The notes below the pieces were generated by a model. It ran no database searches, was not told the origin of the DNA, and saw only the letters and a program-made list of their open reading frames with translations. From a virus: a DNA stretch of 64,000 nucleotides. A program made the position numbers and the translations under genes. Of the stretch, positions 26,633 through 64,000 are shown one piece after another; the first letter of the stretch is position 1; every line of letters begins with the position of its first letter. The stretch is taken from positions 1 through 64,000 of the IMG/VR virus record IMGVR_UViG_3300044617_001255; one strand, given 5' to 3'.

Positions 26633-26638
26633 GCACAT

Positions 26639-27323: not shown

Positions 27324-27468
27324 TGAGACGGTTTAGTAAGTCATCCGGGGAGCCGTAACTCGCAACCGGCGAATGGTGATTTAGGAAACTCACCGAACCT
27401 TCAATATAAACCCCTGTTCACGGATATCCTGTCGGTAGGGGCAACACCGTTTCGCGCACGGCGAATCG

Positions 27469-27726
27469 TCACGCCGGGACACGGCGGGGACGACCACGCT
27501 TCTCCTCACGGACGGTGAGGGTGGCGAGATTGGTTAGTTCGGGGAACTGGAACATACCCCGACCTGCCTTGCGGCTCGCATCGCTCGTCACCCACACGGG
27601 GATGACGCTGTAACCGAGCGCATCCTTTGCGGTGAGGAGTTCGGAACGGCTGAACACCGTCTTGCCCGGATGGGCGGTGGCGAGGTGCGAGAGGAACTGC
27701 ATCTGATTGGAAGTGTAAGTCTGCAT
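27469..27726 (-). CDS. Hypothetical basic protein
   Basis: 85 residues. MQTYTSNQMQFLSHLATAHP then TVFSRSELLTAKDALGYSVI and a basic end (EEKRGRPRRVPA) suggest a small winged-helix-like domain with an AT-hook-like RGRPRR. AAGGAG lies 8 nt before the ATG, so unlike its neighbours this gene has a leader and Shine-Dalgarno site. Confidence 0.7.
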   Translation of the reverse strand: MQTYTSNQMQFLSHLATAHPGKTVFSRSELLTAKDALGYSVIPVWVTSDASRKAGRGMFQFPELTNLATLTVREEKRGRPRRVPA

Positions 27727-27788
27727 TGTGCAGGCTCCTTTTTGTCTGAATGAATCTTGTCACCGGGAACGCCCCTGCGACACTATTC

Positions 27789-27815
27789 ATTATATCCATT
27801 TTTTCGTCAAGTCAA
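27789..27815 (-). promoter_or_regulatory. Sigma70-type promoter with normal leader
   Basis: Minus strand TTGACT, 15 bp, TATAAT at about 27794-27789, roughly 60 bp before the ATG at 27726. Confidence 0.6.
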
Positions 27816-27953
27816 GGGGATTTCTTCGATTTTCGAATACCACAATTCTTCCTGAATTTGTGATATTTCCTCTTGACATTCCAGGCCCTCCAGGAGGAGT
27901 GGGTCACACAACTCAACCCACTCCTCCAACTCCAAGAGGTCATCGTTAGGCAT
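27807..27953 (-). CDS. Small acidic protein
   Basis: 48 residues from ATG 27953, which overlaps the stop of the MoxR-like gene. Very acidic and leucine-rich: MPNDDLLELEEWVELCDPLL then LEGLECQEEISQIQEELW. A perfect 12-bp inverted repeat, GGAGGAGTGGGT/ACCCACTCCTCC (27891-27925), lies inside it and may also act as a hairpin. Coding is plausible but not certain. Confidence 0.5.
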   Translation of the reverse strand: MPNDDLLELEEWVELCDPLLLEGLECQEEISQIQEELWYSKIEEIPLT

Positions 27954-29136
27954 TGAGTGCCGCCTCCGTGCTGACGCTCTCCGCCGGGACTTCCGGCTTC
28001 GACGCGATTGCCGATGCGTCGATCTTCGTGTAGAGGTTGACGAACGAATCGCGGCTGTCCGGGCTGAACCGACCAACGCAGTCGGTGACTGCCTTCATCC
28101 TGTCGCGGAAGATGCTGTAGTTCAGCACAATGTGCTCCAGTCGGCGGGTCGTGATGATGTCATCGACACCACCCTCCTTGAACGTCTTGCGGATGATCTC
28201 TGCCCACTTCACAAGGTTGTCGGCAAACTCATCGTCGCGGCATCCGTTGTCCTTCATAATGTTGAGGACGATGCGCTTCTCAACCGCCTTCGATGGGTAG
28301 TCCTGCTCGTACATGACATAGAACCGCTCAAGGAAGGCTTCGTTGAGAATGTTCGTGCCTGCGAACCGCTCGCTGCCCTCGCCTGCCTGTCCCTTTGTGT
28401 TGGCGGTGGCGAACACGTTGAACCCCGGCGCAGGCATGACGTACTTGTTGATCTTCTTCAGGAAGATGCCCTTGCCCTCAAGCACGGGCTGAAGGCACAT
28501 GATCTTGTGCGAGCCGAGGTCAACCTCGTCAAGCAGCAGAATCGCGCCACGCTTCATGGCAGTAATGACTGCGCCATCCTGCCACACGGTCGAACCATCG
28601 ACCAGTCGGAACCCGCCAAGCAGGTCATCCTCATCGGTCTGTGCGGTGATGTTGACACGGACGTACTCCCGGTTCAACTTGGAGCAGACCTGCTCCACCA
28701 TCGTCGTCTTGCCGTTGCCCGACAAACCCGTGATGTAGACGGGGTAGAACCGCTTGGACTCGATGATCTTGCTGATATCGCTGAAGTGTCCGTAGGGGAC
28801 GTAGTGCGACAACTTCGCCGGGACGAGGTTGTCGGTTGCGGTGGTGCTGACGGACGGCTGATAGTTGAGAACTGACATTGGAGTTTCCTCTTGTGTTGGA
28901 AGTGTGAGAATGGTGGAAGGCACAGATGGGACGATGGTAGCCGGGGCGGTGTTGGAGGTCAACTCCTGCACCTCGTACTTGCCACTAGCAAGACGGCGTG
29001 TAGGCACGTTGAGGATCCATGTAGGCATGGGAACCTTGTGCTTGTACACGACCGCCTTGATCTGTGAGCGGGTGAGAGGTGAGGTGTAGCCTTCTGCACG
29101 GCAGGCTTCGACAAACTTGGTCATGGAGTCGTTCAT
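27946..29136 (-). CDS. MoxR/CobS-like AAA+ ATPase
   Basis: 396 residues. Walker A GLSGNGKTT (137-145), Walker B ILLLDEVD (199-206), sensor-1 FNVFATANTKGQ, and the Arg-finger region FLERF. The DEDDLLGGFRLVDGSTVWQD segment and the whole layout match phage CobS-like/MoxR ATPases. Residues 1-110 are an extra linker with a helical N-terminal domain. Such ATPases remodel partner proteins together with VWA proteins, and the divergent neighbour at 29357 is one. The ATG lies 7 bp after the -10. Confidence 0.9.
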   Translation of the reverse strand: MNDSMTKFVEACRAEGYTSPLTRSQIKAVVYKHKVPMPTWILNVPTRRLASGKYEVQELTSNTAPATIVPSVPSTILTLPTQEETPMSVLNYQPSVSTTATDNLVPAKLSHYVPYGHFSDISKIIESKRFYPVYITGLSGNGKTTMVEQVCSKLNREYVRVNITAQTDEDDLLGGFRLVDGSTVWQDGAVITAMKRGAILLLDEVDLGSHKIMCLQPVLEGKGIFLKKINKYVMPAPGFNVFATANTKGQAGEGSERFAGTNILNEAFLERFYVMYEQDYPSKAVEKRIVLNIMKDNGCRDDEFADNLVKWAEIIRKTFKEGGVDDIITTRRLEHIVLNYSIFRDRMKAVTDCVGRFSPDSRDSFVNLYTKIDASAIASKPEVPAESVSTEAALNA

Positions 29137-29356
29137 GCGGTGCAGTATAAGGCATCCGGGGTGGGGTGCAATAGGTTTGTTGCAATAATGTCACATATTG
29201 CGCAGAATGGCCGAAACCTGGATTTTACAAAAGGCAGGGCTGGCCTGACATTTGAATAATTGCAAATCCCCCTGGTCGCAGCTCCTGGCACAACTATCTG
29301 CATCGAACTTCACAAATAGTGCTTGCAACCGAGGCAGGAGTCGGTATACTTGGGGC
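29137..29356. promoter_or_regulatory. Divergent promoter region of the MoxR and VWA genes
   Basis: Minus: TTGCAC (29171-29166), 16 bp, TATACT (29149-29144), 7 bp, ATG 29136. Plus: TTGCAA (29323-29328), 16 bp, TATACT (29345-29350), 6 bp, ATG 29357. Both -10 hexamers are TATACT and both -35s are TTGCA(A/C), unlike the other promoters here, so the two genes are probably co-regulated. TGTCACATATT and CTTCACAAATA motifs lie between them. Confidence 0.8.
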
Positions 29357-31633
29357 ATGACCAACCCAATCAATCCATCCAAGTCCTCGCTCGCTCGCCT
29401 GATGTCCACAGAGAACCTGAAGGTTGTCTACGACAACAAGGCGCATACCGCATCCTTCAATGTCGTTTCCCGTGAACTCCGGCTCCCCGTCTACAAGGAT
29501 TTCGTGGACGAGACTGTCGATATGTTCGTCGGGCATGAGGTAGGGCACGCTCTCTACACTCCCGGCACGGAGGAGGCATTCGTCGGTGCGCTCAACGCCA
29601 TCGACCCCAAGAACCATCCCTCCGCAAAGTCGTTCCTGAATGTCGTTGAGGACGTTCGCATCGACCGCCTCATCAAGAACAAGTACCCCGGCATTCGCCG
29701 CTGCTACACCGCAGCATCCGCAGACCTTGTGAAGCACGACCTGTTCGGTCTGCGTGAGCCGGGTGCGGAGCCAGTCGATCAGATGCCGATGATCGACCGC
29801 CTCAACCTCCACTTCAAGGCAGGCATCTACGGCACTCTGCCCGTGTTCCTCACGGAGCGTGAGCAGGCATTCGCTGATCGCATGGAGCGAGCAGAGACTT
29901 TCGATGAGGTTGTGCAGATCGCAAAGGATCTGTACGAGGCATCGTTCGATGACATTCAGAACTCGCCGGATCAGAAGGTTGCCGTGCCGCAGCAGGCAAA
30001 GCAGGGCGAGGAGGGCGAGGGCAAGCAGGGAAATCCCCTTGACACGGAGAACCGCAAGGTCGATGACTCCGCAGAGGGCAACGATGGCAAACTCGCAGCC
30101 AATCCACGAATCGACAACAGCCACAACCGCAGCCGTCCCCGTCCGTGCAGCACGCAGGAGAAGTACGAGCAGGCAAAGAGCCGCAAGATCGACTCGCAGA
30201 GCGACGAGTACGCCTACTACGAGATGGCGAAGCCGAACCTTGACGCAATCGTGATCGACTACCCCACCGTGCTTGCGGACCTTGATGCGAACCGCAACGA
30301 TCCGGCAAACCGCTGCGCGGAGTGTTGGGTCGGAGACTCGCTCTACGAGAAGTACCGGCAGACGAATCTCCCTGCCGTCCGCATCATGGCTCGCACCTTT
30401 GAGCGCAAGCAGTCAGCGGTTCTTGATGCTCGCACACTCATCAGCAAGACGGGAATCATCGACCCGAACTCGCTCCACTCGTACCGCTTCAACGATGACA
30501 TCTTCACCCGGAATCAGGAGCAGCCCAACGGCAAGAAGCACGGCATGGTGATCTATGTCGATTGGAGCAGCAGCATGGGAGGCACGATGCTCGCTACCGT
30601 GCAGCAGATCGTCGCACTCGCAGACTTCTGCGATATGGTGCGAATCCCCTACGAGGTGTATGCGTTCTCATCGGCTCTTGATGATCGCCAACTCAAGAAG
30701 GCAGGCATCAAGCGCAAGGATCGTTACGACACTCCCGCACAGATCTACGGTGCGTATTGGCATGGCTTCTCATCCACGCCGAATCAATGGGGCAGCGAGG
30801 ACATCGACCCGCAGGGCAGGCTCTACATGAGTCCGTTCCAACTGGTGAATCTGCTCTCGTCCAAGATGAGCAAGACGGAGCGAGTGTCGATGCAGAAGCA
30901 TTTGCTCGTCATGGGCGCATCGTTCGATGGCGCAATCATCAACGGCATTCGCTACTACTACCCCATCCCCTCGCTCTACAACTTGGGCAGCACTCCGCTT
31001 GATGAGGCGGTTGTGTGTGCCTGTGAGCAGGTTCCTGCGTTCATGCAGCAGCACGGCGTTCAGGTGATGAACACGGTTCTCATCACCGATGGCGGATCCG
31101 GTTCGCAGGTCGTGAAGGATGCGTACATCAACAACGTGCTGCGCTACAACGGCGAGGACATTCCGCTTCAGCCGTGCAACTCGTACAACTCGTTCACCAA
31201 CTCGCTGCTTGGCGTTCTCAAGCGCAAGACGGGGACGAACATCATCAACTTTGAACTGCTCATGGGTCGTGGACACGACCACCGCTTCTGGGGCATGGCT
31301 ACTCCGTGCTTCACCCGTCACAACCGGATGCGGCACGACAATCGGGTTCACATGAAGCGCAACGTGACGGATGAGCAGAGAATCGCAGATCAGATGAAGA
31401 AGCATTACGAGGACAAGAACTACGCCATCCGTGAGAACTACGGGAACATCGACGCATTCGTGATGATCCCCGGCAAGACCGGACTGGTTGAGGCGCAGTC
31501 GTTCGACTCGCTCGTTGAGGGTGCTACGACGATCACCAAGATTCGCTCTGCGTTCGTCAAGACCTCATCGAATGCCGTCAACACTCGCTTCATGCTGAAT
31601 CAGATGGGCGAGGTGTTCGCCAGTCAACTCTGA
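29357..31633 (+). CDS. VWA-domain protein with HExxH motif (CobT-like)
   Basis: 758 residues from ATG 29357. N-terminal part: VGHEVGHALYTPG holds HExxH (His60, Glu61, His64), followed by NVVEDVRIDRLIKNKYPG, a likely third metal ligand. Residues about 215-290 are acidic and disordered. The VWA domain begins near 396; VDWSSSMGG (Asp402) is the DxSxS metal site. Phage CobT-like proteins pair with CobS/MoxR ATPases. The reaction may be chaperone-like or proteolytic; cobalt insertion into cobalamin is less likely. Leaderless. Confidence 0.88.
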   Translation: MTNPINPSKSSLARLMSTENLKVVYDNKAHTASFNVVSRELRLPVYKDFVDETVDMFVGHEVGHALYTPGTEEAFVGALNAIDPKNHPSAKSFLNVVEDVRIDRLIKNKYPGIRRCYTAASADLVKHDLFGLREPGAEPVDQMPMIDRLNLHFKAGIYGTLPVFLTEREQAFADRMERAETFDEVVQIAKDLYEASFDDIQNSPDQKVAVPQQAKQGEEGEGKQGNPLDTENRKVDDSAEGNDGKLAANPRIDNSHNRSRPRPCSTQEKYEQAKSRKIDSQSDEYAYYEMAKPNLDAIVIDYPTVLADLDANRNDPANRCAECWVGDSLYEKYRQTNLPAVRIMARTFERKQSAVLDARTLISKTGIIDPNSLHSYRFNDDIFTRNQEQPNGKKHGMVIYVDWSSSMGGTMLATVQQIVALADFCDMVRIPYEVYAFSSALDDRQLKKAGIKRKDRYDTPAQIYGAYWHGFSSTPNQWGSEDIDPQGRLYMSPFQLVNLLSSKMSKTERVSMQKHLLVMGASFDGAIINGIRYYYPIPSLYNLGSTPLDEAVVCACEQVPAFMQQHGVQVMNTVLITDGGSGSQVVKDAYINNVLRYNGEDIPLQPCNSYNSFTNSLLGVLKRKTGTNIINFELLMGRGHDHRFWGMATPCFTRHNRMRHDNRVHMKRNVTDEQRIADQMKKHYEDKNYAIRENYGNIDAFVMIPGKTGLVEAQSFDSLVEGATTITKIRSAFVKTSSNAVNTRFMLNQMGEVFASQL

Positions 31634-32232
31634 AAGACTGGCTCAAGCACTCGTCGCACAATCGTTGGTATGGTCAGGTGAGCCCTTCTCCGAAAGGAGG
31701 AGGGCATCACTTTTTGTATGTACTTGTTGCTGAAAGGATCCCTGCGCCAATTCCAAGTAGGGAATTCGCGCATCATGTGGTAGAGATATATGTACGTATT
31801 CGCCGCACGAATATATGTCTTTACTCCGATGCGCAGCCTGTGGCGTAGTGCTAGCTCGATGGCCTTGCGTTCAGTCTGTCGCTCATATGTGCGAACACGG
31901 CGGAATGCCCAATCCAACTGACGACGAGAGTACCTGCGGGCACCAGTCGTGTAGTCAGCAACAATATGTGTAGCACGGTCGTCCTGGCGTTCGTCTCTGG
32001 CTGACTGCTCCAGCCACAGAACGAAATGCGAATACTCATGAAGCAGAGTCCATAGCCAACGACCATTCCCCCTGGCTACACGGATCTCTCTCCTGGCTGC
32101 GTTGAAGTAGCCAGCGATGCGAATACCTTCGCAATTCACATTTAATCCTTTTCCAAATATAAGTTTCCATCCGTACTCTGCCAGATGGGAACGAACATGC
32201 TGGACGAACTTAAATGTGGTATCTTGCATCAT
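31624..32232 (-). CDS. HExxH metallopeptidase-like basic protein
   Basis: 202 residues, Arg-rich. WTLLHEYSHFVLWLEQSARD holds HExxH; RREIRVARGNGRWLW just before it gives the strand-helix layout of SprT/WLM-like zinc peptidases. The third ligand is not clear. It runs convergent to the VWA gene and overlaps its end by 10 bp. The start MM... has no clear Shine-Dalgarno site. A second metalloprotease-like gene beside the MoxR/VWA pair. Confidence 0.7.
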   Translation of the reverse strand: MMQDTTFKFVQHVRSHLAEYGWKLIFGKGLNVNCEGIRIAGYFNAARREIRVARGNGRWLWTLLHEYSHFVLWLEQSARDERQDDRATHIVADYTTGARRYSRRQLDWAFRRVRTYERQTERKAIELALRHRLRIGVKTYIRAANTYIYLYHMMREFPTWNWRRDPFSNKYIQKVMPSSFRRRAHLTIPTIVRRVLEPVFQS

Positions 32233-32305
32233 ATCTATTTAGGTTATAAGGGACCGAAAGGGCCGAAAAGACCTGGCTGGTTTTCGATCTGGGAATTTCA
32301 CATAT

Positions 32306-32383
32306 TGTTGACAGCGATTTAACATATTAAGCGAAGACAAGCGAGAGCGAGTCGAGTGGGGATATGTTAAATCGCTGTCAACA
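32306..32383. repeat. TGTTGACAGCG hairpin, copy 5
   Basis: Perfect 20-bp arms 32306-32325 and 32364-32383; pairing continues for one more bp outside and two inside. Inner variable stem ATTTAACAT/ATGTTAAAT; loop 38 nt counted from the 20-bp arms. GGGAATTTCACATATT directly precedes it. Confidence 0.92.
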
Positions 32384-32430
32384 AGTCCGATAATAAGGCC
32401 CCTGGCGGCTTTCAAACCGGATAGAGAAAC

Positions 32431-32459
32431 TTGACAGGTCCGATAAGTTACCGTACAAT
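32431..32459 (+). promoter_or_regulatory. Near-leaderless promoter
   Basis: TTGACA (32431-32436), 17 bp, TACAAT (32454-32459), 8 bp, ATG 32468. A TCCGATAA motif sits in the spacer and recurs around it. Confidence 0.8.
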
Positions 32460-32467
32460 GGGGGTTC

Positions 32468-32818
32468 ATGAGCAGTTACCGCCCATATTATCGACCGTTT
32501 CGAATGGTGAAATTATCGGACCTGACCGATAACCGATTTGAGAAATTTACAGTTATCGGAATAAGCGCGCTGCTGCTGATGCTCATGTGGGGATTCGTCT
32601 GGGTAATTTTCAAATTCACATATTCGAGCGGGGAAGACGACCAGACAATCCAGGCCCCACTGAACCAGCCAGAGAATCAGGATATATACAATTGGAGAAC
32701 TATATCATGCCCACCTACGAGTACAAGTGCTTCGCCTGTGAACACACATTCGAACAATTCCTACCATTATCCCAACGTCAAGCCCCGACCAAGGAGGCTT
32801 GCCCCCACTGTTCCTTAA
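32468..32818 (+). CDS. Small membrane protein overlapping the FmdB-like gene
   Basis: 116 residues. One transmembrane helix (FTVIGISALLLMLMWGFVWV at about 27-46) after a basic N-terminus, so the C-terminus probably lies outside the cytoplasm. From about residue 80 the frame overlaps the next gene by 112 bp and has low-complexity composition. Either a true overlap or a sequence/frame change near 32700. Function unknown. Confidence 0.6.
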   Translation: MSSYRPYYRPFRMVKLSDLTDNRFEKFTVIGISALLLMLMWGFVWVIFKFTYSSGEDDQTIQAPLNQPENQDIYNWRTISCPPTSTSASPVNTHSNNSYHYPNVKPRPRRLAPTVP

Positions 32819-32991
32819 AGAAAGTAAAACAAGTAGTACTCAGTGTACCAGGCATGGCTGTCGATACATCACATAGAATCGATGGTAAGGCTACGGGACA
32901 GTTTAGAGATATCATGCAGAAGGTATCTCAGTCTCCAGGTATCAAGGGCTCTAAGAGGGAGAGGGCTCTGAAGAACCGATACGGGCTGTAA
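32707..32991 (+). CDS. FmdB-type zinc-ribbon protein
   Basis: 94 residues from ATG 32707 (GGAG upstream). MPTYEYKCFACEHTFEQFLP and ACPHCSLKKVKQVVLSVPG are the FmdB/CxxC_CXXC_SSSS signature: YEYxCxxCxxxFE, then CPxC. The family binds zinc and is thought to regulate transcription. The C-terminal tail (GQFRDIMQKVSQSPGIKGSK) is basic. Confidence 0.85.
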   Translation: MPTYEYKCFACEHTFEQFLPLSQRQAPTKEACPHCSLKKVKQVVLSVPGMAVDTSHRIDGKATGQFRDIMQKVSQSPGIKGSKRERALKNRYGL

Positions 32992-33168
32992 TATATGAAT
33001 TGATTGGGGAATTTTCGAAAAGTCTTCGAATAAGGCTTCGAATGGGGAATTTGTGAATTCATATATTGGATTCGATTAGAGAAAATCCGAATATGTGAGA
33101 AAGACTATACCACACAACACCCCCATTAAAAAACATTAATTTAATATTCATTTTCTACATACTTCTGT
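32992..33168. other. Gene-free spacer, TTCGAA-rich
   Basis: No gene or clear promoter. TTCGAA or TTCGAW occurs about five times, and GAATTTGTGAATTCATATATT resembles the TTTCACATATT motif. Composition becomes AT-rich towards the tagged methyltransferase. Confidence 0.4.
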
Positions 33169-33711
33169 ATGAAATCATTTACTCAATATCTCTCTGAACA
33201 ACAAAAGTATACCTCTGCGTCTACTTCTATTAATAAATCTAAACTTCCAAAGGGCTATACGGCTGTAGGAAAGCACTTTGGATGGCAAAAGGGTTCTACT
33301 CATATAGACATTGGGGGAGGTAGATTCGATAATGCTATAGAGCATTTATCAAAACATGGCGTAAAGGGTCATGTATATGATCCGTATAATCGTACTGCGG
33401 AACATAATGAAAATGTTTTAAAAACAGTTGGGGGAAAGGCTGATACGGCTTCTCTATTTAATGTATTAAATGTAATAGAGGAGCCTGAACATCATGTCTC
33501 TGCTTTGAAACTGGCTCATGGCAGTCTTAAACCCGGTGGTAGGCTATTTGTGGGTGTCTACGAAGGGGATAAGAGTGGTAAGGGTAAGCAAACGGGGAAA
33601 GACTCCTATCAGAGAAATGAGCGACTGGGGAATTATTTAAAAACAGTTCAAAGCGTGTTTCCAAATGCTGCGATTCATAAAGGTGTAATACATGCCACCA
33701 AAGACGAATAG
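33169..33711 (+). CDS. Tagged class I methyltransferase, candidate packaged protein
   Basis: 180 residues. It starts MKSFTQYLSE|Q, a clear head-targeting tag with an LSE cleavage site. The body is a class I AdoMet methyltransferase: STHIDIGGGRFDNAIEHL (motif I), GHVYDPYN (acidic strand 2), ASLFNVLNVIEEPEHHVSAL and LKPGGRLFVGVYEG. If packaged, it would enter the cell with the DNA and could act at once. It sits as an AT-rich island between GC-rich early genes. Confidence 0.75.
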   Translation: MKSFTQYLSEQQKYTSASTSINKSKLPKGYTAVGKHFGWQKGSTHIDIGGGRFDNAIEHLSKHGVKGHVYDPYNRTAEHNENVLKTVGGKADTASLFNVLNVIEEPEHHVSALKLAHGSLKPGGRLFVGVYEGDKSGKGKQTGKDSYQRNERLGNYLKTVQSVFPNAAIHKGVIHATKDE

Positions 33712-33734
33712 GGAATTTCACAAAACATTCCCTC

Positions 33735-33762
33735 TTGACAGACGAGGTGTATGAGTTACAAT
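33735..33762 (+). promoter_or_regulatory. Leaderless promoter
   Basis: TTGACA (33735-33740), 16 bp, TACAAT (33757-33762), 6 bp, ATG 33769. GAATTTCACAAA lies upstream at 33714. Confidence 0.88.
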
Positions 33763-33768
33763 ACACCC

Positions 33769-34212
33769 ATGTCAAACACAACACTCAATCGTAAGAACCG
33801 TATCATCAAGACCAACATCACGGCTACCACTAGCGGCAGGGGCCTGTGGACGGAGGAGCGCAAGACCGTGAACATTCACTCGGTCAAGTTCATGCCTGTC
33901 ATCTATGACGAGCCTGGGCGTGAGAGCGGAGCCATGTACATCGAAGCCTACTTTGACCGTAAGGAGTGGAACACTCGTCAGGATGGTCTGATCTATACGG
34001 ATCAAAAGTGGATGCGAGAGTTTCGTCAGGGGTTCTTTGCTCAGTTTCCTGAGTTGCGAGAGGTTGATGCCAACATCGACTACTCAGAGCAGGGGGCGCA
34101 GGGTCTAAACTACGTTCATATTGTTCTGGTGGCTAACAAGGGCAAGAAGTTCGACAAGTTCATGGAGTTTCTTCGTCAGTACGATCTGATGGCTACCGTG
34201 GAACTTCTCTGA
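33769..34212 (+). CDS. Hypothetical protein, leaderless
   Basis: 147 residues from ATG 33769. Mixed alpha/beta (VNIHSVKFMPVIYDEPGRES; YVHIVLVANKGKKFDKFMEF). No family recognised. Confidence 0.7.
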   Translation: MSNTTLNRKNRIIKTNITATTSGRGLWTEERKTVNIHSVKFMPVIYDEPGRESGAMYIEAYFDRKEWNTRQDGLIYTDQKWMREFRQGFFAQFPELREVDANIDYSEQGAQGLNYVHIVLVANKGKKFDKFMEFLRQYDLMATVELL

Positions 34213-34238
34213 ATTTCACAAATAGGAATTTGTATAAA

Positions 34239-34406
34239 ATGCCTGAGACACATATGGAACAACTGCTGAAGCAGGAAATTGAGAAGTTAACAAAAGAGAA
34301 CGAACAATTGCGTCTTGAGAGAGATGAACTTGAGAAGCGAGTGGATGAATTCATTGACGAGAAGTATGCTCCACGGGGCATTTGGGGAGATTTTACAAAT
34401 GAGTGA
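34239..34406 (+). CDS. Small coiled-coil protein
   Basis: 55 residues from ATG 34239, or 50 from the internal ATG at 34254, which lies 13 nt after a TAAAAT -10-like hexamer. The product is one charged helix (EQLLKQEIEKLTKENEQLRL, then ERDELEKRVDEF). It overlaps the next gene (ATGAGTGA). First of the overlapping operon. Confidence 0.6.
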   Translation: MPETHMEQLLKQEIEKLTKENEQLRLERDELEKRVDEFIDEKYAPRGIWGDFTNE

Positions 34407-34704
34407 CGACCTTTCTCTGTCCCGAAGTGAGCGAGAAATGTATACAACAGATTCTCGTATTTGTGAATTAACAAATGAGCGGGCAGTTCTGAATGAGATC
34501 GTTGAGTCTCAGAGAAATGAACTGGCTTTCCTTGTGGAGAGAGTCCGTGTCCTTACGCAGGAGCGTGACGAGGCACGACAGGAGATATGCATACGAGTGT
34601 GTGACACTCTTGGTGCGGTACTTAGTGGTTCACCTCGCACTCCGCAGGACTATGCTGAGAAGATGGGGTGGGACTGCTTCAAAGAGGACACAAATGACCG
34701 ATAA
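34399..34704 (+). CDS. Coiled-coil protein with EARQEIC...GWDCF module
   Basis: 101 residues from ATG 34399. SDDLSLSREREMYTTDSRIC-like start, a long charged helix, QERDEARQEIC and then DYAEKMGWDCFKED. Paralogous at its C-terminus to 26271-26558 and 35043-35594. The ATG of the next gene overlaps its stop. Confidence 0.65.
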   Translation: MSDDLSLSRSEREMYTTDSRICELTNERAVLNEIVESQRNELAFLVERVRVLTQERDEARQEICIRVCDTLGAVLSGSPRTPQDYAEKMGWDCFKEDTNDR

Positions 34705-35050
34705 CGACATCGTGAGCCGCCTGAACCGCATTCTGTCTGCTGCGGACGAACGAGGGCTGGATGAGACTGAATGCCGTGCCATGCAGGATGCGGTTACCGA
34801 AATTGAGAAGATGCGTAACAATCCATTCACCTGGTGGGTACGCGAAAAGAATTTCAATTGTACCATTGAGGCAAATGTTGCAGTCACCTTTGAGTTTCTT
34901 CAGGAAGCGGATGCCCTTGGAAATGATGAGATACTGCGACATGTTTGTGATATGATCGCTGGTGACATCATGGCTGCATACCGAAAGAGAAATAATGAAC
35001 TGTTCGGGACACCGAATAGAATTTCTAACAAGGAGAACAACAATGACTGA
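34694..35050 (+). CDS. Hypothetical protein
   Basis: 118 residues from ATG 34694 (overlap ATGACCGATAA). Helical (DIVSRLNRILSAADERGLDE; FEFLQEADALGNDEILRHVC). No family recognised. Confidence 0.65.
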   Translation: MTDNDIVSRLNRILSAADERGLDETECRAMQDAVTEIEKMRNNPFTWWVREKNFNCTIEANVAVTFEFLQEADALGNDEILRHVCDMIAGDIMAAYRKRNNELFGTPNRISNKENNND

Positions 35051-35594
35051 CGGCATTCCAAATCTACCTCCCAATTGGGTGAATGAGGCTGACCAACTCC
35101 GAGCAGAGCGAGATAAGGCAAGAGCCGCCGTGGTTGACCTTGTGCTTGAAGTTGAGCGATTGCGACCCATTGCAGCAGAGCAGAACAATAGTTACAAATT
35201 GGCTGCTACATACTTCAATGAGTTGGAAAACGCGAGTGCTCAAAACAAGTCTTTAGCCAAGGAGCGTGATGAGGCCATCAAGGAGCGTGATGAAGCAAGG
35301 CGTGAGGTATGCTATTTTCACCACATTACCGGCTTCCTTGCGGGTGACTATGCTTACAGCCGTAAGTGGGATTGCTTTCCTAGCAAGGAGTATTATGGTA
35401 TGCCAGATCCAGTTAAAGAGTTTCGTCAAATAATTGAACAGGACTACGATACACTCCGCAAGCAGCGTGACGAGGCACGGAGAGAGGTCTGTATGCTGTC
35501 TGTAGGCAAGGGTGGGCGTTCCTCATCTGCCTCTCCTGACGCCATTGAGGAGGCAGACAAGCGGGGTTGGGAGTGTTTCAAGGATAATGTGTGA
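35043..35594 (+). CDS. Coiled-coil protein with two EARREVC modules
   Basis: 183 residues from ATG 35043. Two copies of the module: KERDEARREVC ... RKWDCF and KQRDEARREVC ... KRGWECF, separated by a helical linker. The first 80 residues form a coiled coil (ADQLRAERDKARAAVVDLVL). Internal duplication of a unit also seen in two other genes. Function unknown. Confidence 0.7.
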   Translation: MTDGIPNLPPNWVNEADQLRAERDKARAAVVDLVLEVERLRPIAAEQNNSYKLAATYFNELENASAQNKSLAKERDEAIKERDEARREVCYFHHITGFLAGDYAYSRKWDCFPSKEYYGMPDPVKEFRQIIEQDYDTLRKQRDEARREVCMLSVGKGGRSSSASPDAIEEADKRGWECFKDNV

Positions 35595-35686
35595 AAAAGT
35601 CTATAAAGAAGGCACTAGAAAAAATTCGTAAAAAGCACGGCGAAGCACTCAAACGGCTCGCCCAAACAAAGGTAAAAAGAAAATGA
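35591..35686 (+). CDS. 31-residue lysine-rich peptide
   Basis: GTG start overlapping the previous TGA (GTGA), stop overlapping the next ATG (ATGA). One basic helix, KKSIKKALEKIRKKHGEALK. The double coupling supports translation. Confidence 0.5.
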   Translation: MKKSIKKALEKIRKKHGEALKRLAQTKVKRK

Positions 35687-35811
35687 ATAATTCAGCAATA
35701 TTTGAAATCTTTATGTTTCTTGCAGTTATCGTAGTCATTGCATTGTGTGTGACTGCTATTATCCATGACTATCATATTCGTGGAGTTCGTAAAAATGAAG
35801 AAAAGAAGTAA
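35683..35811 (+). CDS. 42-residue single-pass membrane peptide
   Basis: ATG 35683 to TAA 35811. Hydrophobic helix FEIFMFLAVIVVIALCVTAI followed by a basic tail. Small phage membrane peptides of this kind may disturb the membrane or anchor partners; function unknown. Confidence 0.6.
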   Translation: MNNSAIFEIFMFLAVIVVIALCVTAIIHDYHIRGVRKNEEKK

Positions 35812-36019
35812 TATTGAGCCAAAGAAGGACATTTTTCTAAAGTTGCGAGAGCAGACCAAGAGGACTGATCTGCCCGAGGATGTCATTCGGACGATGGCAG
35901 AGGCATATTACGTCCTCACGACTCTTGAGATAATGAACGAGGAGTTGGAGAGTCTATTGGATGACTATCGTAGAGAGGACATGGACAGATCTAGGTATGA
36001 AGGATTCATGAATGACTAA
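35795..36019 (+). CDS. Hypothetical helical protein
   Basis: 74 residues from ATG 35795, inside the end of the previous gene. Charged helices (EDVIRTMAEAYYVLTTLEIM). No family recognised. Confidence 0.6.
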   Translation: MKKRSNIEPKKDIFLKLREQTKRTDLPEDVIRTMAEAYYVLTTLEIMNEELESLLDDYRREDMDRSRYEGFMND

Positions 36020-56464: not shown

Positions 56465-56492
56465 ATTGTACCACACTAATTCAACATGTCAA
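56465..56492 (-). promoter_or_regulatory. Sigma70-type promoter
   Basis: Minus strand TTGACA (56492-56487), 16 bp, TACAAT (56470-56465), then a 22-nt leader with a Shine-Dalgarno site to ATG 56442. Confidence 0.85.
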
Positions 56493-58414
56493 GAACTAAC
56501 TAGATCAACCATCTCACACTTATCGCCGGTGCAGGCAAATGTCTGCGTTCCAGATGTTTGGTCTTGCTTCTCATAATTCTTTAGAAGTGACCAATCAACA
56601 TTCTTTGGCATTCTAGCCAACATTTCTTCATACTCTTCTTTTGTGCAATCCTGGTATGGAGCCTGACGATATGAATGGTCAGAATGAGGAAGGAATGAAA
56701 TACCGCTAATATCATCGAAGTGCTTATATACCCAAGCACCAACTTCCATCCATTCGTGCTCCTTTACTGTTACTGTAATACTTGGCTTATGTTCACACCA
56801 GAACTTCTGATAAGCAAGCCATAGATTCAAATGTTCAATTGCAGTCATATCACTTCGTGTTACAGAACCTTCAGCCTTCATTGGAAATGAGAAGACCATT
56901 ACATTATCTGGTTTCATCACGCATGGCTCATGTGGGAATCCCATCTCCATCATCATGCTGCAAAGAGGATCCTTTCGATCTGCACGAACTGTACGAATGT
57001 AGTATTCGTTGTGTCGAGCATGAATACCTGAAGCAGCATCAGTCAATTGTGATACTGTACCAGATGGTTTGATACAAGTAATTGCAGCAGCCTGATTGAT
57101 CTTAATCTTCTTAGCCCATTCCTTATTTGTATCAATTGCTGTTTGCTTGAGTGTTGTTAAAATTTCAGGTAACTTAGATCCATTTATTCTAAGCATTTCA
57201 TTATCCATGATACCAGTCAACGATACACCAAGCAATGCTTCCTCTTCGCAATTATTCTTCCATTCCGAAGAAAGATATGGAAAATGAGTCAAAGATGCTT
57301 GCCATGTTCCTAGAATAGATGCCAGACGAATCTTTCTCTTGAGTGATTCTACTGTATCTTCCTTGCGAACTATAACTTCTGTAAGATTGCAGAATTCACG
57401 ATCACGAAGAATGATTTCTGAACATGGGTTTGTTCCGAAATCATAGTTTGGATCACGGCGATCTCCAAGTTTTTCTACAGTCTTTTTACAGGCATCACGA
57501 TTGAAGATACCACGCTCTCCACTCTTGCTCTTATAAAGAGAAACCCATTCTTCCATATAAACGCCAATTTCAGGCTTCTCTTTGTAGGCTACTGAATTGT
57601 TGGAAAGTGCTCGTTGTGGATTTGCCTCCCACCAAGCACCAACCTTGGCTTCTCTCATCCGCTCATCCGTGAGATTCGATAGGCTAATAAGAGCAGATCT
57701 ACGGACTCCTCCCACCACCACAATCTCTGCAATTTTACATACGATATCGTGGCATTCGATCGAAGTGAGCTTTCTCCCTGCTGCTCTCTTAAAAGTATCA
57801 CAGGTGAACCTGAAAAGATCATCAAGGGGCTTTGGACCGGAGGCTCTTCCACCAAATACTTTGAGCCTCGCACCAGCAGGACGTATTTTCGATAGGTCCC
57901 ATTTTGGTATTTGACCACCAATGAGTAGGGAGATAAGTTCTTTGTAAGCTTTAGCCCAGCCACCTTTAGAATCCTGTACAACAATCGTGGTGTCTGAATT
58001 AGTAAATTGTTCAGCAATTGTAGGGAGTTTTTCAACATATTGCCTTTCTACCGAGAAACCAACTCCGGTTCCACACATTAAAACGTAAAGTATTTCATCA
58101 AATGCACGAACTCTATTTACTGCAACGTATGAGCAATTATATCCAGCAGTGTTGTCACGGTGAAGTGCTTCGCCTGCAGTCATGAGTGCTCTCATGCTTG
58201 GCATGATCTCAAGATTCAAAACAGCAGTCTCAAGTTCAGAACGAAGATCCTTTGAAAGAATGAACTTATGATTCTCCTTCAAGTGATTTTCAAAGAAATC
58301 AAAATATCTTTTTACTGTCTCTTCCCAAGTTTCTCTTCTATTTTCACTTTCAAGCCATCTTGAATAACGTGAAAGGTGAATGAAATCTTGATATAGAGTC
58401 GGTAAATTCTTCAT
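56489..58414 (-). CDS. nrdJ: Class II (B12-dependent) ribonucleotide reductase
   Basis: 641 residues from ATG 58414 (GGGAGA upstream). It makes deoxyribonucleotides using adenosylcobalamin. Motifs: MRALMTAGEALHRDNTAGYN with the first active-site Cys (YNCSYV), GTGVGFSVE, NPCSEIILRDREFCNL, CIKPSGTVSQL and a C-terminal redox pair FACTGDKCE. Sequence and length resemble monomeric RTPR-type enzymes. Oxygen-independent and single-subunit, it supplies dNTPs for phage replication wherever the host has B12. Confidence 0.9.
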   Translation of the reverse strand: MKNLPTLYQDFIHLSRYSRWLESENRRETWEETVKRYFDFFENHLKENHKFILSKDLRSELETAVLNLEIMPSMRALMTAGEALHRDNTAGYNCSYVAVNRVRAFDEILYVLMCGTGVGFSVERQYVEKLPTIAEQFTNSDTTIVVQDSKGGWAKAYKELISLLIGGQIPKWDLSKIRPAGARLKVFGGRASGPKPLDDLFRFTCDTFKRAAGRKLTSIECHDIVCKIAEIVVVGGVRRSALISLSNLTDERMREAKVGAWWEANPQRALSNNSVAYKEKPEIGVYMEEWVSLYKSKSGERGIFNRDACKKTVEKLGDRRDPNYDFGTNPCSEIILRDREFCNLTEVIVRKEDTVESLKRKIRLASILGTWQASLTHFPYLSSEWKNNCEEEALLGVSLTGIMDNEMLRINGSKLPEILTTLKQTAIDTNKEWAKKIKINQAAAITCIKPSGTVSQLTDAASGIHARHNEYYIRTVRADRKDPLCSMMMEMGFPHEPCVMKPDNVMVFSFPMKAEGSVTRSDMTAIEHLNLWLAYQKFWCEHKPSITVTVKEHEWMEVGAWVYKHFDDISGISFLPHSDHSYRQAPYQDCTKEEYEEMLARMPKNVDWSLLKNYEKQDQTSGTQTFACTGDKCEMVDLVSS

Positions 58415-58487
58415 ATTTTGTTCTCCCAATGATAAAGCGGTACAGTATGTAGCCAAGTGTAAAAATGCAACGAATAAAGATTTTGAA

Positions 58488-59108
58488 TCAACTTATTTTA
58501 TTATTTTTAAAAATCATTACTCCATTGCGATACCAAGGATTGTCCAGTATAATTTCATAAGAATCTGAATCTGACAGTACTTCATTTCTTATTTGTTCAC
58601 ATTTTCTTGAAGTAGTATCATCTAATCCGATAAATAAAGATCTGTCTTTCAATTTTAAATATTCTGAATAAGTTGAAAATTCACCACCATCAAGAAAGAG
58701 AAAATCTATTCTTTTCGGAATTTTACTCAAGACATTTGGACATTTTAGAAATGCATTGAGATCCTGTTCGAACCATAATTTTTCGTCAGGATGATAACAC
58801 CCTAGATGTTTATCATCCATTTCTTGAACATCAATAATTCTACCCCAAACAAACTTTGCCCAGTTAGGCAACATATCTTTCCAAATTTGAACTGCGGTAG
58901 AATGCATATTCAATTCCGCTTCAAGACTAAGAAACGATATTTCTTTCTTATTAGAATCGGATAGACCACGAATGATACATTCGGTGCTTCCCAATCCTTT
59001 CCATGTGCCTATTTCTACAACAGTTTTTATTGATGAATTTTTCAGACACAATTCATACAACTTGTGTCCAAATTGACTTTCTAACTTTATTTGTCCATAT
59101 TCTTCCAT
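58488..59108 (-). CDS. Class I AdoMet methyltransferase-like protein
   Basis: 206 residues. IKTVVEIGTWKGLGSTECII (motif I), SFLSLEAELNMHSTAVQIWK and RIDFLFLDGGEFSTYSEYLK fit methyltransferase-24/cephalosporin-hydroxylase-like proteins of glycan clusters. Coupled with the sulfotransferase region. Substrate unknown. Confidence 0.72.
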   Translation of the reverse strand: MEEYGQIKLESQFGHKLYELCLKNSSIKTVVEIGTWKGLGSTECIIRGLSDSNKKEISFLSLEAELNMHSTAVQIWKDMLPNWAKFVWGRIIDVQEMDDKHLGCYHPDEKLWFEQDLNAFLKCPNVLSKIPKRIDFLFLDGGEFSTYSEYLKLKDRSLFIGLDDTTSRKCEQIRNEVLSDSDSYEIILDNPWYRNGVMIFKNNKIS

Positions 59109-59111
59109 AAA

Positions 59112-59537
59112 TTATAAATTATTTGCAGCCATATACTCATCAATCTGCTCATGTGAATTCAACAACGAAATTTGTTCTCTTTTTTGTCTTAAAGATAATA
59201 TATTTTCTGTAATCGTATCTATACAGCAGTTATCATTTGTAGAACATGAACATTGAAATTCTTTTGTAATCTCAAAACTAATTGCCCTTCGTTCTTCCTG
59301 TGTTAAAATCATTAGTAAAGTTTCTTTACGATCATTAACACTCAGATCCTTAACACCCCATACAATCTCTACAGGAGTCTTGCTAGTATCAAAATAATAC
59401 CCCTCTACAATTTGTCTATTTGGAATAGGATTTGCTAATATATCCACTGCTTCACGCCAATCACCTTCTCTGTTTGGATTGTAACCCAAACATTCAACTA
59501 CTACACCTTCTTCAACACGTACCCAATAATTTGCCAT
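59112..59537 (-). CDS. Putative tail-fibre-linked protein
   Basis: 141 residues. MANYWVRVEEGVVVECLGYN then GYYFDTSKTPVEIVWGVKDL resembles short phage proteins next to tail fibres that begin with a YxxxxxGxVxxV pattern. FQCSCSTNDNCCIDTITE may bind metal. It overlaps the next gene by 26 bp. Confidence 0.5.
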   Translation of the reverse strand: MANYWVRVEEGVVVECLGYNPNREGDWREAVDILANPIPNRQIVEGYYFDTSKTPVEIVWGVKDLSVNDRKETLLMILTQEERRAISFEITKEFQCSCSTNDNCCIDTITENILSLRQKREQISLLNSHEQIDEYMAANNL

Positions 59538-61308
59538 TTTCAGTCTCCTTTTTGCTGTATCTTGAATTTAATTCTTCTTTCAATTCAATCATTGGAGCAT
59601 TCCAAGAACCATATTTAGTTTGTCTAAAAAGTCTAACGGAATCGTAATATGGAGTCCTATTTCCTGGTACTGCCCATAAGTAATAATGTAAAACAGGAAC
59701 AATTATCCAAGTATCTATTCCCATTGCTCCGCTCATGTGTGCAATACTTGTGCACGATGATACAACTAAATCACATTTTGATAGTTCTGCACGGGTGTCC
59801 TCCCATGAATCCAAACGCACCTTCCTCATCCACGGCGGAGTCTCGTCTATTCCCTCATCACGCTGTAAGCATACAAAGTCTGCGTCTATCCCATCAAATG
59901 CCTTGAAAAACGGCTTTAAAGGAAATCTGCGATTCTGTTCGTGCTCAAATTTTGGATTTCCCCACCATCTTATTCCGATAGTTGGTCTTTTACTTGGATT
60001 TGATATATACATTTTTGGAATATATGGTTTACCACTAATATCTGGATATTCATACCCAAGAGGGAGAAGTACAGACATGGCAGGAACCCACCAATCATGA
60101 TAAACACCCCCTGCAGCTTCATGTTGAATGATTGTTTTTATCCCTTCACAACATTTTACTACAGGAAATAATTCAGGTGAACATGCCACAATTACGTCAC
60201 ACCCTCGGCGCGTTATATCTTTAATATATCTAAGCGCATGTATTTGATCTCCAAGTCCTCCCTCAAGATAATAAAGAATAGTTCCCATTCCTTTTCCGTC
60301 CCATATTTGAGTTGGAACAGGAGGTTTGGGATTTCCGAAACATTTATCATAACGACCACGGGAAAGATATTCCATACCTTGTTGTAATTTATTTTGTCCT
60401 AAAGCAAACCATCCCATATTAAATGCAATTTTGTTGCATATTGGATTTTCTTTTTGTGCTTCGCATAAAATTTTATATGCTTGTTTTGATTTACCCTGCA
60501 TAGAAAGACGTACTGATTGATCAATTTTTTTAGGAATTACTGAATCAAAAGATTCACCTTTCCAAAACTTTGGAGGATCAAAATTATCATAATGATATCC
60601 CAATATTTCTTTTGCACTAATATTATGTTGTCTCTCAAGGCGAGAACCAATTTTGTGAAGATTTGGAATACCCCATATTTCATCATCTCGTTCTGCTACT
60701 ACTTGAGTATCCAAAGAATTAAAATTATAGACATGGGAATTTATATTTAAAAATGTGTGAATACGATTCATCTGTTCTTGTGGATTGGTAAGAAGATCCT
60801 CATAGTCTACAAACAAAAAACAATCAGGATTTTGTTTGTATCCATTATAAAGAGTAGCATATGAGGTTTTAAGATGTTCAACTAATTGTGAGTCAAATAG
60901 AAATGTTTGAAGATCAGTAGGTTTTGCAAGTCTTACAAATGATGCTGCACATTCTGCAGGATGTCTAACTGTTGCAATAATTTTTGGTTTTTTACCAAGA
61001 ACTTTTTCTAAAGTATTCACAATTTGAGGATTTGCCCATCCGCGACTTTTATCTATTATAATTGGTTTATGTATGGATTCATATTTTGTGTACATCACAG
61101 ATTTTAATAAACTATAAACTTCATGTTTATCTGTTTTTTGTGTATGAATCGCAGGAGAAGATTCCCATGCATTGCATACTGCACCCATAAGATCTATAAG
61201 CCCACTAGTAGTGGTAGAATGTATTTCAGGATGTTGAGTTAATAGAGAAGATAAAACAGTTGAACCGCTACGTGGAATTCCAGCTAAAAAATGCACAGTA
61301 TTATTCAT
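59512..61308 (-). CDS. Sulfotransferase - glycosyltransferase fusion
   Basis: 598 residues. About 1-260: sulfotransferase with the 5' PAPS loop FLAGIPRSGSTVLSSLLTQH, PKIIATVRHPAECAASFVRL (3' PAPS motif) and the helix DYEDLLTNPQEQMNRIHTF. About 265-330: TPR-like helices. About 345-585: GT9/TPR-linked transferase: YYLEGGLGDQIHALRYIKDI, IGIRWWGNPKFEHEQNRRFP, LSKCDLVVSSCTSIAHMSGA. A two-step enzyme adding sugar and sulfate, probably to tail fibre or host surface glycan. I know of no phage case, but have not searched. Confidence 0.85.
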   Translation of the reverse strand: MNNTVHFLAGIPRSGSTVLSSLLTQHPEIHSTTTSGLIDLMGAVCNAWESSPAIHTQKTDKHEVYSLLKSVMYTKYESIHKPIIIDKSRGWANPQIVNTLEKVLGKKPKIIATVRHPAECAASFVRLAKPTDLQTFLFDSQLVEHLKTSYATLYNGYKQNPDCFLFVDYEDLLTNPQEQMNRIHTFLNINSHVYNFNSLDTQVVAERDDEIWGIPNLHKIGSRLERQHNISAKEILGYHYDNFDPPKFWKGESFDSVIPKKIDQSVRLSMQGKSKQAYKILCEAQKENPICNKIAFNMGWFALGQNKLQQGMEYLSRGRYDKCFGNPKPPVPTQIWDGKGMGTILYYLEGGLGDQIHALRYIKDITRRGCDVIVACSPELFPVVKCCEGIKTIIQHEAAGGVYHDWWVPAMSVLLPLGYEYPDISGKPYIPKMYISNPSKRPTIGIRWWGNPKFEHEQNRRFPLKPFFKAFDGIDADFVCLQRDEGIDETPPWMRKVRLDSWEDTRAELSKCDLVVSSCTSIAHMSGAMGIDTWIIVPVLHYYLWAVPGNRTPYYDSVRLFRQTKYGSWNAPMIELKEELNSRYSKKETENGKLLGTC

Positions 61309-61337: not shown

Positions 61338-63503
61338 CTAACGAGTTCCCATGGTATGAGTAGAACTAGGTCCTGTTACAATTGTTTTCCAATCTGTATC
61401 TGTACCTATTTGCACAGGAGAATTTACTCTAAAAGCAGGATTATCGAATCCTAATGCATATTGTGCATTATTTCCCCAAGCCCAAATTGTTCCGTTTGTT
61501 TTAATAGCTATGCTACCCAAACGCATTGCCCCTACAACTGCCCAGTCTGTTGCAGTTCCTATTTGCACTGGTGATGATCTATTTGTTAAATCTCCTAATC
61601 CTAATTGACCAACATTATTATATCCCCAACTCCACATTGTTCCATTAGTTTTCAGAGCAATAGTATGATATCTTCCTACTGCTGCAGAAGACCAATCTGT
61701 TAGAGTTCCTATTTGGACAGGACTACTTGTAGCATTTGTTCTGGCTGTTTGTCCTCTTGTACTACCTCCCCATGCCCATAAAGATCCTGTTGTTTTTATT
61801 GCTATTGTAAAATCTGTTGATGGAATTGCAAAAGCCCAATTTGCATCTGTACCTACTTGAACTGGAGAAGAACGGTCTGTTGTATCTCCAAGACCTAAAC
61901 GTCCATTTAGATTTCTACCCCAAGCCCATAAAGTTCCACCAGTTTTAATTGCCATTGTGTGTTCAGTTCCTGCATTTGCCTTTGACCAATCTGTTGCAGT
62001 ACCTATTTGAACAGGAGAAGAGCGATTTGCGGTATCTCCAAGACCTAAACGCCCATTTCCACCAGAACCCCAAATCCATAAACTACCACCAGTTTTTAAA
62101 GCAACTGTATGAAGGTTCTGACAAGATACAAATGACCAATCTGTTTGTGTTCCCACCTGAACTGGACTACTTCTATTTACGCCTCCAATTACTCCGAGTC
62201 CTAATTGAGCAGAACCATTAGGTCCCCAAGCCCACAAACTTCCACTAGTTTTAATTGCAAAAGTATTTGTGTATCCAGTCATTACAAAAGACCAATCTGT
62301 TGATGTTCCTACTTGAACTGGAGAAGATCTAGTTATTCCATCCGATAATCCTAATTGCCCATACTGATTAAATCCCCATGCCCATAAGGTGTTATTAGTT
62401 TTTATAACAGATCCATGACGGGTTTGATTAGAATTTAAAGTGGACCAATCTGTACCTGTACCTATTTGAACTGGAGAAGATCTACTTGTAACTGGAAAAA
62501 ATCCTAATTGTCCAGATGAGTTTAATCCCCATCCCCACAAAGTTCCATTTGTTTTAGTTGCTAAAGTATGGTTTGCTCCAGAAGATATAAGTGACCAATC
62601 TGTATCTGTGCCTACCTGTACAGGAGAAGATCTATTTGTTAAATCTATCAATCCTAATTGTGCATTATTATTACGACCCCAAACCCATAAAGTTCCATTT
62701 GTCTTAGTAGCAACTGTGTGTGATCCTCCAGAACTAATTTTATTCCAATCACTACCTGTACCTATCTGCACAGGAGAAGATCTATTTGTTAGATCTCCTA
62801 ATCCTAGTTGACCATAACTATTACGACCCCAAGCCCAAAGAGTGTTGGTAGTTCTAATTGCTATTGTATGGTTATCTCCCGGACTTACTTTAGACCAATT
62901 AGTATCTGTACCTACCTGTACTGGTGAGGAACGACTATTAATGTTTCCTGATCCTAAACGACCATAATTACCAGCACCCCATGTCCATAAAGTTCCTGTG
63001 GTTTTAATTGCACCTGTAAAATTATTGGAAGTAGATACAGAAGCCCAATTTGTGTCCGTGCCTACTTGAACAGGGGATGAATAACTAGTAGTATTTCCAA
63101 GTCCTAATGCACCAAATGTTGAAGCAGAACCCCAACCCCAAAGAGTACCTGTAGTTCTAATTGCCATTGTATGATCTCCACCTGCACTAGCAATAGACCA
63201 ATTTGTATCAGTACCCACTTGAACTGGTGAAGATCTAGCTGTTGTATCTCCAAGACCTAATCGCCCACTGGAATTAGCACCCCAGGCCCATAATGTGCCA
63301 TTTGTTTTAGTGGATAAAGTATGTGTTCCACCAGTTGTTATAATAGACCAATCTGTATCTGTACCTACTTGAATTGGAGAAGTTTTATTTGTTGCATCTC
63401 TTAACCCTAATTGTCCCGATGTATTGAATCCCCACCCAAATAGTCTGAAAGTTCCAGATAAAGTAGGTTTTATAATCCATCCTCTGAAATTAGGAATAAT
63501 CAT
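61338..63503 (-). CDS. RCC1-repeat beta-propeller protein
   Basis: 721 residues made of 14 repeats of about 50 residues, each with a WxW(G)xxxxGQLGLGD(T)xxRSSPVQ(V/I)GTxTDW core (for example LWAWGANSSGRLGLGDTT). This is the RCC1/ATS1 propeller motif; fourteen repeats would form two seven-bladed propellers. Position between a collagen-like fibre and glycan genes suggests a virion surface protein, possibly binding the host. No signal peptide. Confidence 0.9.
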   Translation of the reverse strand: MIIPNFRGWIIKPTLSGTFRLFGWGFNTSGQLGLRDATNKTSPIQVGTDTDWSIITTGGTHTLSTKTNGTLWAWGANSSGRLGLGDTTARSSPVQVGTDTNWSIASAGGDHTMAIRTTGTLWGWGSASTFGALGLGNTTSYSSPVQVGTDTNWASVSTSNNFTGAIKTTGTLWTWGAGNYGRLGSGNINSRSSPVQVGTDTNWSKVSPGDNHTIAIRTTNTLWAWGRNSYGQLGLGDLTNRSSPVQIGTGSDWNKISSGGSHTVATKTNGTLWVWGRNNNAQLGLIDLTNRSSPVQVGTDTDWSLISSGANHTLATKTNGTLWGWGLNSSGQLGFFPVTSRSSPVQIGTGTDWSTLNSNQTRHGSVIKTNNTLWAWGFNQYGQLGLSDGITRSSPVQVGTSTDWSFVMTGYTNTFAIKTSGSLWAWGPNGSAQLGLGVIGGVNRSSPVQVGTQTDWSFVSCQNLHTVALKTGGSLWIWGSGGNGRLGLGDTANRSSPVQIGTATDWSKANAGTEHTMAIKTGGTLWAWGRNLNGRLGLGDTTDRSSPVQVGTDANWAFAIPSTDFTIAIKTTGSLWAWGGSTRGQTARTNATSSPVQIGTLTDWSSAAVGRYHTIALKTNGTMWSWGYNNVGQLGLGDLTNRSSPVQIGTATDWAVVGAMRLGSIAIKTNGTIWAWGNNAQYALGFDNPAFRVNSPVQIGTDTDWKTIVTGPSSTHTMGTR

Positions 63504-64000
63504 GTTGTCAAATTACCAGCAACATTAAATATATTTGTAGCATAACAAAATAATGTTGCTGCTCCATGTTGTGCTGAAATCTTCAATCCACTTGCAGAAT
63601 TAAGTGTAGTTCCAGATGCTACAAATGTAACTTGACCTGCCCCTGCTTGTATTACTGTACAACTAAAGCCTGCTGTCCCTACTGTAGTACTTACTGTTAA
63701 ATTTTGTGGAGTTGCAGCATCTATTACTATTATTTTTCCATTATCTGTTGTTCCTAGTGAAAAACCAGCTCCAGTGGCTCCAACAGAAGAAGATGTTACT
63801 CTGTAACCTTCATTTGCAGTCATATTTCCTGTTAAAGTTACATCATCATTTGTTATAGTAAATCCACCAGTAGCTCCTGCAACACCATTATTATTAAATA
63901 TTATTTGAGTATTTGAACCTGCTACTGGACCAGTGGCACCTGTTGTTCCTTGAACACCAGTTGCACCTGTGGTTCCTTGAAGACCTGTGGCACCAGTTGC
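63500..64000 (-). CDS. Collagen-like fibre protein, 5' part outside the window
   Basis: Open frame from the window edge (codon start at 64000) to the stop at 63500, 166 codons seen. The visible N-terminal part is Gly-X-Y (GATGLQGTTGATGVQGTTGA), followed by SNTQIIFNNNGVAGATGGF and a beta-rich C-terminal part ending at the RCC1 gene (ATGA overlap). Bacterial and phage collagen-like proteins form trimeric fibres; a tail fibre or head fibre is likely. Confidence 0.8.
   Translation of the reverse strand, partial: ATGATGLQGTTGATGVQGTTGATGPVAGSNTQIIFNNNGVAGATGGFTITNDDVTLTGNMTANEGYRVTSSSVGATGAGFSLGTTDNGKIIVIDAATPQNLTVSTTVGTAGFSCTVIQAGAGQVTFVASGTTLNSASGLKISAQHGAATLFCYATNIFNVAGNLTT

Follow-up and report, generated by a model that had tools for sequence, protein, structure and literature searches.

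The closest described counterparts of the locus reported here are the bacterial autotransporter heptosyltransferase systems TibC-TibA and AAH-AIDA-I, in which a GT9-like enzyme serves one adhesin (PMC4358343). The catalytic aspartate of TibC, D110, was assigned by superposition on WaaC and MurG (PMC4358343). Phages contribute two further precedents: sulfotransferases have been described from phage genomes, their function being called unclear (PMC10580990), and mycobacteriophage glycosyltransferases are thought to glycosylate the capsid (PMC11256854).

We analyse a viral gene that joins a predicted sulfotransferase (ST) to a glycosyltransferase (GT) in a 64,000-nt stretch of DNA, the window, which is part of a 78,966-base IMG/VR record. 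By analogy, the fusion resembles TibC and AAH: a GT9-like GT-B enzyme, with a conserved aspartate at the putative catalytic position, would have a single repetitive, beta-rich surface protein as its substrate. Unlike them, the fusion has no N-terminal beta-barrel; an ST and TPR-like helices precede its GT, and no four-cysteine iron-finger recurs across the fusions, where C376, C512, and C519 are the only invariant cysteines of the GT domain; barrel and iron-finger are the defining features of the TibC/AAH family. Moreover, the substrate of TibC is an autotransporter, whereas the proposed substrate of the fusion is a phage RCC1 fibre.

The phage precedents differ in other ways. The sulfotransferases of cyanophages S-SRM01, S-SKS1, and S-SCSM1 and of OM43 phages are stand-alone rather than GT-fused; the window ST is 27-36% identical to the cyanophage sulfotransferases, and the S-SRM01 sulfotransferase gene follows an RCC1 ORF, as the fusion does. 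The TPR-glycosyltransferase of S-SRM01 (24% identity) and the GT of BUCT-ZZ01 (37%, with about 200 extra C-terminal residues) belong to the same GT family and lie behind RCC1, without an ST. As in mycobacteriophages, a phage GT is proposed to modify a virion protein; the abstract of that paper mentions neither a sulfotransferase nor an RCC1 partner (PMC11256854). In open-licence PMC papers, we found no description of the fusion or of its RCC1 pairing, and nothing on point for a phage sulfotransferase with a tail fibre or with RCC1 and a GT.

The fused gene and its neighbours

The fusion sits within a late structural module, in a run of genes on one strand:

63500 to 64000, minus strand: 3' end of the gene for a collagen-like tail fibre (1253 aa), which runs on to record position 67261
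61338 to 63503, minus strand: RCC1 beta-propeller, 721 aa, with 14 Pfam RCC1 stretches; proposed substrate
59512 to 61308, minus strand: fusion of ST, TPR-like linker, and GT9-like GT, 598 aa, with full-length relatives and an AlphaFold2 model
59112 to 59537, minus strand: 141-aa protein whose first codons overlap the 3' end of the fusion gene; conserved beside or near many fusions
58488 to 59108, minus strand: methyltransferase-like protein, 206 aa, Methyltransf_24 E 0.016, below cut-off

Spacing is tight: the stop of the fibre gene overlaps the RCC1 start (4 bases), 29 bases separate RCC1 from the fusion, and the fusion overlaps the 141-aa gene by 26. The sequence-only reading had named a collagen-like fibre, an RCC1 propeller, and a methyltransferase as neighbours. 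All three are in place: the fibre matches Pfam Collagen (E 2e-90) as well as PHROGs of tail fibres, the 14 RCC1 stretches identify the propeller, and the methyltransferase, with its weak sub-threshold match, has homologues in loci L001, L003, and L025 and is possibly a further tailoring enzyme. The 141-aa protein has zero family matches and no clear PDB match; its model weakly resembles phage tail assembly chaperone and DUF4376 proteins, and it is a possible tail-fibre assembly chaperone.

Other features of the window were observed in passing. Directly behind the proposed fibre-modification genes, at 56489-58456 (minus strand), is a ribonucleotide reductase whose insertion domain matches class II (B12-dependent) enzymes. 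A second two-enzyme fusion, a GT (phrog_3408) followed by an FkbM-type methyltransferase, occupies a 597-aa frame at 8049-9842 (minus strand). A purine-metabolism pair, at 11025-12080 and 13277-14362 (minus strand), comprises an adenylosuccinate synthetase, PurA-like and matching PurZ less well, with a GMP reductase nearby. The GC content is 45-57% at about 20000-36000 and about 35% elsewhere, which may mark a block of foreign DNA or a join made in assembly.

The single 598-residue frame proposed to hold both enzymes is exact in coordinates, strand, and length: the ORF has an ATG start and zero internal stops. Scans of IMG/VR used the full-length fusion and each of its two halves separately; their matches were pooled with the window and with some loci of annotated phages. 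The pooled set has 72 distinct, complete proteins in which an ST is followed by a GT in a single frame, and 13 more that are cut at contig ends. L001 is 86% identical to the window fusion over all 598 residues, L003 is identical across the 233 residues present, and L002, from a phage with different neighbours, is 44% identical and likewise in a single frame. A frame break that splits the domains occurs only in L055, L173, and L259, against well over 70 intact copies. An assembly chimera is ruled out by the 72 complete fusions in independent contigs. Between the window and L001, dN is 0.12 in the ST and 0.06 in the GT, with dS probably saturated. The broken copy in L173 stands with an RCC1 gene (together 2304-5163) in the isolate genome Methylocucumis oryzae Sn10-6, possibly in a decayed prophage.

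Two predicted active sites in one protein

The AlphaFold2 model of the fusion, built with a 47-row alignment as input, has a mean pLDDT of 89.8 and was compared with known structures by VIA-align. Profiles, conservation, and model together give the following layout:

60538 to 61308, minus strand: ST domain, residues ~1-257; Sulfotransfer_3/_1 and the fold of TPST1/2, CurM ST, and heparan sulfate 3-OST
61258 to 61281, minus strand: predicted 5' PAPS-binding loop, G10-I-P-R-S-G-S-T17, with P-R-S-G-S-T invariant in 47/47 relatives
60940 to 60966, minus strand: predicted 3'-phosphate-binding segment R115...S123, with R115 and S123 invariant in 47/47; aligned with the OLS sulfotransferase 4gox
60346 to 60528, minus strand: TPR-like linker of four helices, residues 261-321, from model secondary structure; TPR_16 in 6/47 relatives
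59554 to 60285, minus strand: GT-B, GT9-like GT domain, residues 342-585; WaaC/WaaF/TibC fold match, D354 invariant in 47/47

By profile, the N-terminal domain is a predicted PAPS-dependent sulfotransferase. Sulfotransfer_3 matches residues 7-189 (E 3.4e-19, 70.4 bits against a cut-off of 27), Sulfotransfer_1 also matches this half, and all 47 aligned relatives match Sulfotransfer_3/_1. The putative PAPS loop noted from the sequence holds up in that P12-T17 are identical in all 47 aligned fusions, as are R115 and S123. In structure, it comes closest to the tyrosylprotein sulfotransferases of human and tick (TPSTs; Z 18-19, with Z 18.9 and rmsd 3.8 over 236 residues for 5wrj), followed by CurM and OLS sulfotransferases (Z 16) and heparan sulfate 3-OST (Z 14). 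The TPST catalytic glutamate (E99 in human TPST2) is absent: in a profile alignment, T34, invariant among the 47 relatives, stands at its position, and we therefore do not claim TPST membership. No PAPS-making gene was found in the record, a search for APS kinase yielding only a sub-threshold match in an AAA protein; PAPS must therefore come from the host.

The C-terminal half of the window protein has no Pfam family, with zero Glyco_transf_9 matches in the record or in the 47 relatives, and it was therefore judged by structure. Its model matches WaaC (Z 16.5, residues 342-584), WaaF (Z 16.0; 229-232 residues aligned for the two), and the protein heptosyltransferase TibC (Z 15.5). At the sequence level, the profile match to E. 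coli WaaC/WaaF/WaaU is short (48 columns, E 6e-6), and a PDB sequence search with the GT alone gave nothing meaningful. The model thus bears out the GT9-like transferase expected at the C-terminus and suggests a GT-B fold. D354, identical in all 47 relatives, lies by range offset at the position of Asp13, the catalytic base of WaaC. The GT9 motif D-T-G-x-x-H reads C-T-S-x-A-H here, with the threonine and histidine kept; since C519 replaces Asp261, strict GT9 membership is not claimed. Between the two domains, the four helices form two TPR-like hairpins in the model; the best TPR_16 match among the six matching relatives has E 7.7e-5, and the window protein itself has no TPR match.

Pairing with RCC1 genes and origin of the fusion

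An RCC1 ORF lies immediately upstream of 75 of the 81 fusions, where about 15 would be expected from the local RCC1 frequency and the maximum in 20,000 simulations was 28. This adjacency is present in all ten 60%-identity clusters of fusions. Four of the six exceptions stand behind another fibre-like or virion-structural ORF, and two behind ORFs of 228 and 258 aa. In the reverse direction, an ST-GT, GT, or ST directly follows RCC1 in 54 loci out of 78, and in 34 out of 51 once the sample is dereplicated at 70%; this sample is biased because its seeds are RCC1s of ST-GT loci, with one from a GT-only locus. Several of the remaining loci are cut by contig ends or have the fusion one gene away from RCC1, either beyond an inserted ORF (L232, L260) or upstream (L222, L249); by eye, the inserted ORF (L232:2664-3470, L260:6244-7050) resembles a GIY-YIG homing endonuclease.

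The pairing extends to enzymes that are not fused. Stand-alone GTs of annotated phages (24-37% identical) accompany RCC1, stand-alone GTs lie behind it in L208, L217, L238, L246, L248, L255, L267, and L276, and a stand-alone ST accompanies it in S-SRM01 and AG-345-E08. The genome collection adds L167, L170, L171, L172, and L173. One of these propellers has RCC1-like matches in 60 annotated phage records, and S-SRM01, BUCT-ZZ01, and AG-345-E08 are found both among them and among the enzyme relatives; the pairing is therefore a property of a subgroup, not of phage RCC1 genes generally.

For the RCC1 domain of jumbo coliphages, the guessed role is ordering DNA (PMC7247149). In the cultured phages PollyC and Littlefix, the genes that contain RCC1-like repeats carry tail fibre or tail protein annotations, in support of RCC1 having a role in the virion. 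Serine plus threonine make up 22-26% of enzyme-linked RCC1s versus 15% of five RCC1s from phages without the enzyme, and nearly every repeat of the enzyme-linked ones contains Ser/Thr-Ser/Thr-Pro ([ST][ST]P). This enrichment may reflect ancestry, since RCC1s of the same loci that are off the enzyme's immediate flank are similar in composition.

Trees of both domains bear on the origin of the fusion. In the GT tree, all fused rows fall together (support 97), and the unfused rows among them are contig-edge or frame-broken copies. They fall together in the ST tree as well (support 96), where the group also takes in contig-cut rows and a single stand-alone copy. This grouping, in quick trees with some long branches, suggests that the fusion probably arose once. 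Repeated fusion is not favoured: fused proteins cluster in both trees bar the contig-edge, frame-broken, and single split cases. L174 has separate ST and GT genes and three GT41 genes; it adjoins the fused set in the ST tree, lies near it in the GT tree, and plausibly represents the pre-fusion state. Stand-alone GTs form deep branches outside the fused clade of the GT tree, and since they also follow RCC1, the GT-RCC1 pairing is probably older than the fusion.

Some relatives are larger. L172 has ST, GT, methyltransferase, TPR, and GT41 in one 1349-aa protein beside RCC1, and L168 has ST, GT, and methyltransferase in one protein. The type of methyltransferase in L168 and L172 occurs as a separate gene after RCC1-GT in L217, L246, L248, L255, and L276; that of the window is of another type, and the window record has no GT41. 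The GT41 family includes protein O-GlcNAc transferases (OGT-type), which favours a protein acceptor. The contig of the L172 protein (1649-5698) is binned as Patescibacteria and may be viral or cellular.

Proposed function and its alternatives

On balance, we consider it somewhat likelier than even that the fusion is a modifying enzyme with two active sites, dedicated to the phage's own RCC1/collagen tail fibre, on which it would put a sulfated sugar. The GT-B domain would transfer a sugar from a nucleotide-sugar donor to a protein, the probable acceptors being Ser/Thr residues in the RCC1 propeller or in the collagen-like fibre encoded just upstream, and the TPR-like helices may help to hold the protein substrate. 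The N-terminal domain would then transfer the sulfate of host-made PAPS to the added sugar or, less likely, to the protein itself. The computed observations are a conserved fused frame, the two folds, the invariant residues at cofactor and catalytic positions, and the tight RCC1 pairing; we infer from them what the enzyme does, in which order, with what sugar and at which residue, and also that its product is on the virion, including the placing of sulfate on the glycan and of the glycan on the virion. Gene pairing is no demonstration of chemistry, and alternative substrates are possible because the 141-aa partner, further GTs, and a second RCC1 also flank fusions. T34 in place of the TPST glutamate and C519 in place of GT9 Asp261 also count against this reading.

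The sequence-only reading had named either fibre decoration or modification of the host surface. The former is clearly favoured by the RCC1 pairing in fibre operons across divergent phages, stand-alone GTs and STs included; nothing was found pointing to the latter, and the gene is part of the late structural module. An enzyme acting on O-antigen, capsule, or a comparable glycan, perhaps to keep out other phages or aid progeny release, would suit the role of WaaC and WaaF, which share the GT fold and are lipopolysaccharide enzymes, the weak, sub-threshold match of the ST to NoeE, a sugar sulfotransferase of Nod factors, and the further GTs downstream in L002. We nevertheless regard it as unlikely, given the T4-like replication genes that the record carries and a constant place behind RCC1 fibre genes for which such an enzyme offers no obvious reason.

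The top structural matches of the ST would instead suit a protein-tyrosine sulfotransferase acting on the fibre or chaperone independently of any sugar added by the GT. We find this rather improbable: an invariant threonine holds the position of the TPST glutamate, the CurM and heparan sulfate 3-OST folds also match at Z 14-16, and tyrosine makes up 1.1% of the window RCC1. The least probable of these accounts, in our estimate, is that RCC1 and enzyme travel as co-cargo of a hypervariable fibre region with no enzyme-substrate relation. Phage fibre regions recombine often, and RCC1 genes are abundant in them (8 in L229); against this, immediate adjacency is far above the local frequency in every cluster and reaches stand-alone GTs on deep branches outside the fused clade.

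Returning to fibre modification by the fusion, we put forward, at a little under even chances, a broader picture: a widespread aquatic phage group may build a sulfated, sometimes methylated, O-glycan on RCC1 tail fibres by means of a dedicated ST-GT cassette, which in some relatives also includes a methyltransferase and an OGT-like GT41. If so, these virions would carry a sulfated glycan, a form of phage decoration that we did not find described in open-licence PMC papers. A natural ST-GT fusion is of use for enzymology. Phage sulfotransferases, listed until now among auxiliary metabolic genes with no role known for them, would gain a function, and the consistent pairing with RCC1 supplies a candidate substrate that makes this role testable. 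If the reading is right, the receptor-binding part of the virion would bear sugar and negative charge, which could affect adsorption, host range, or protection of the fibre.
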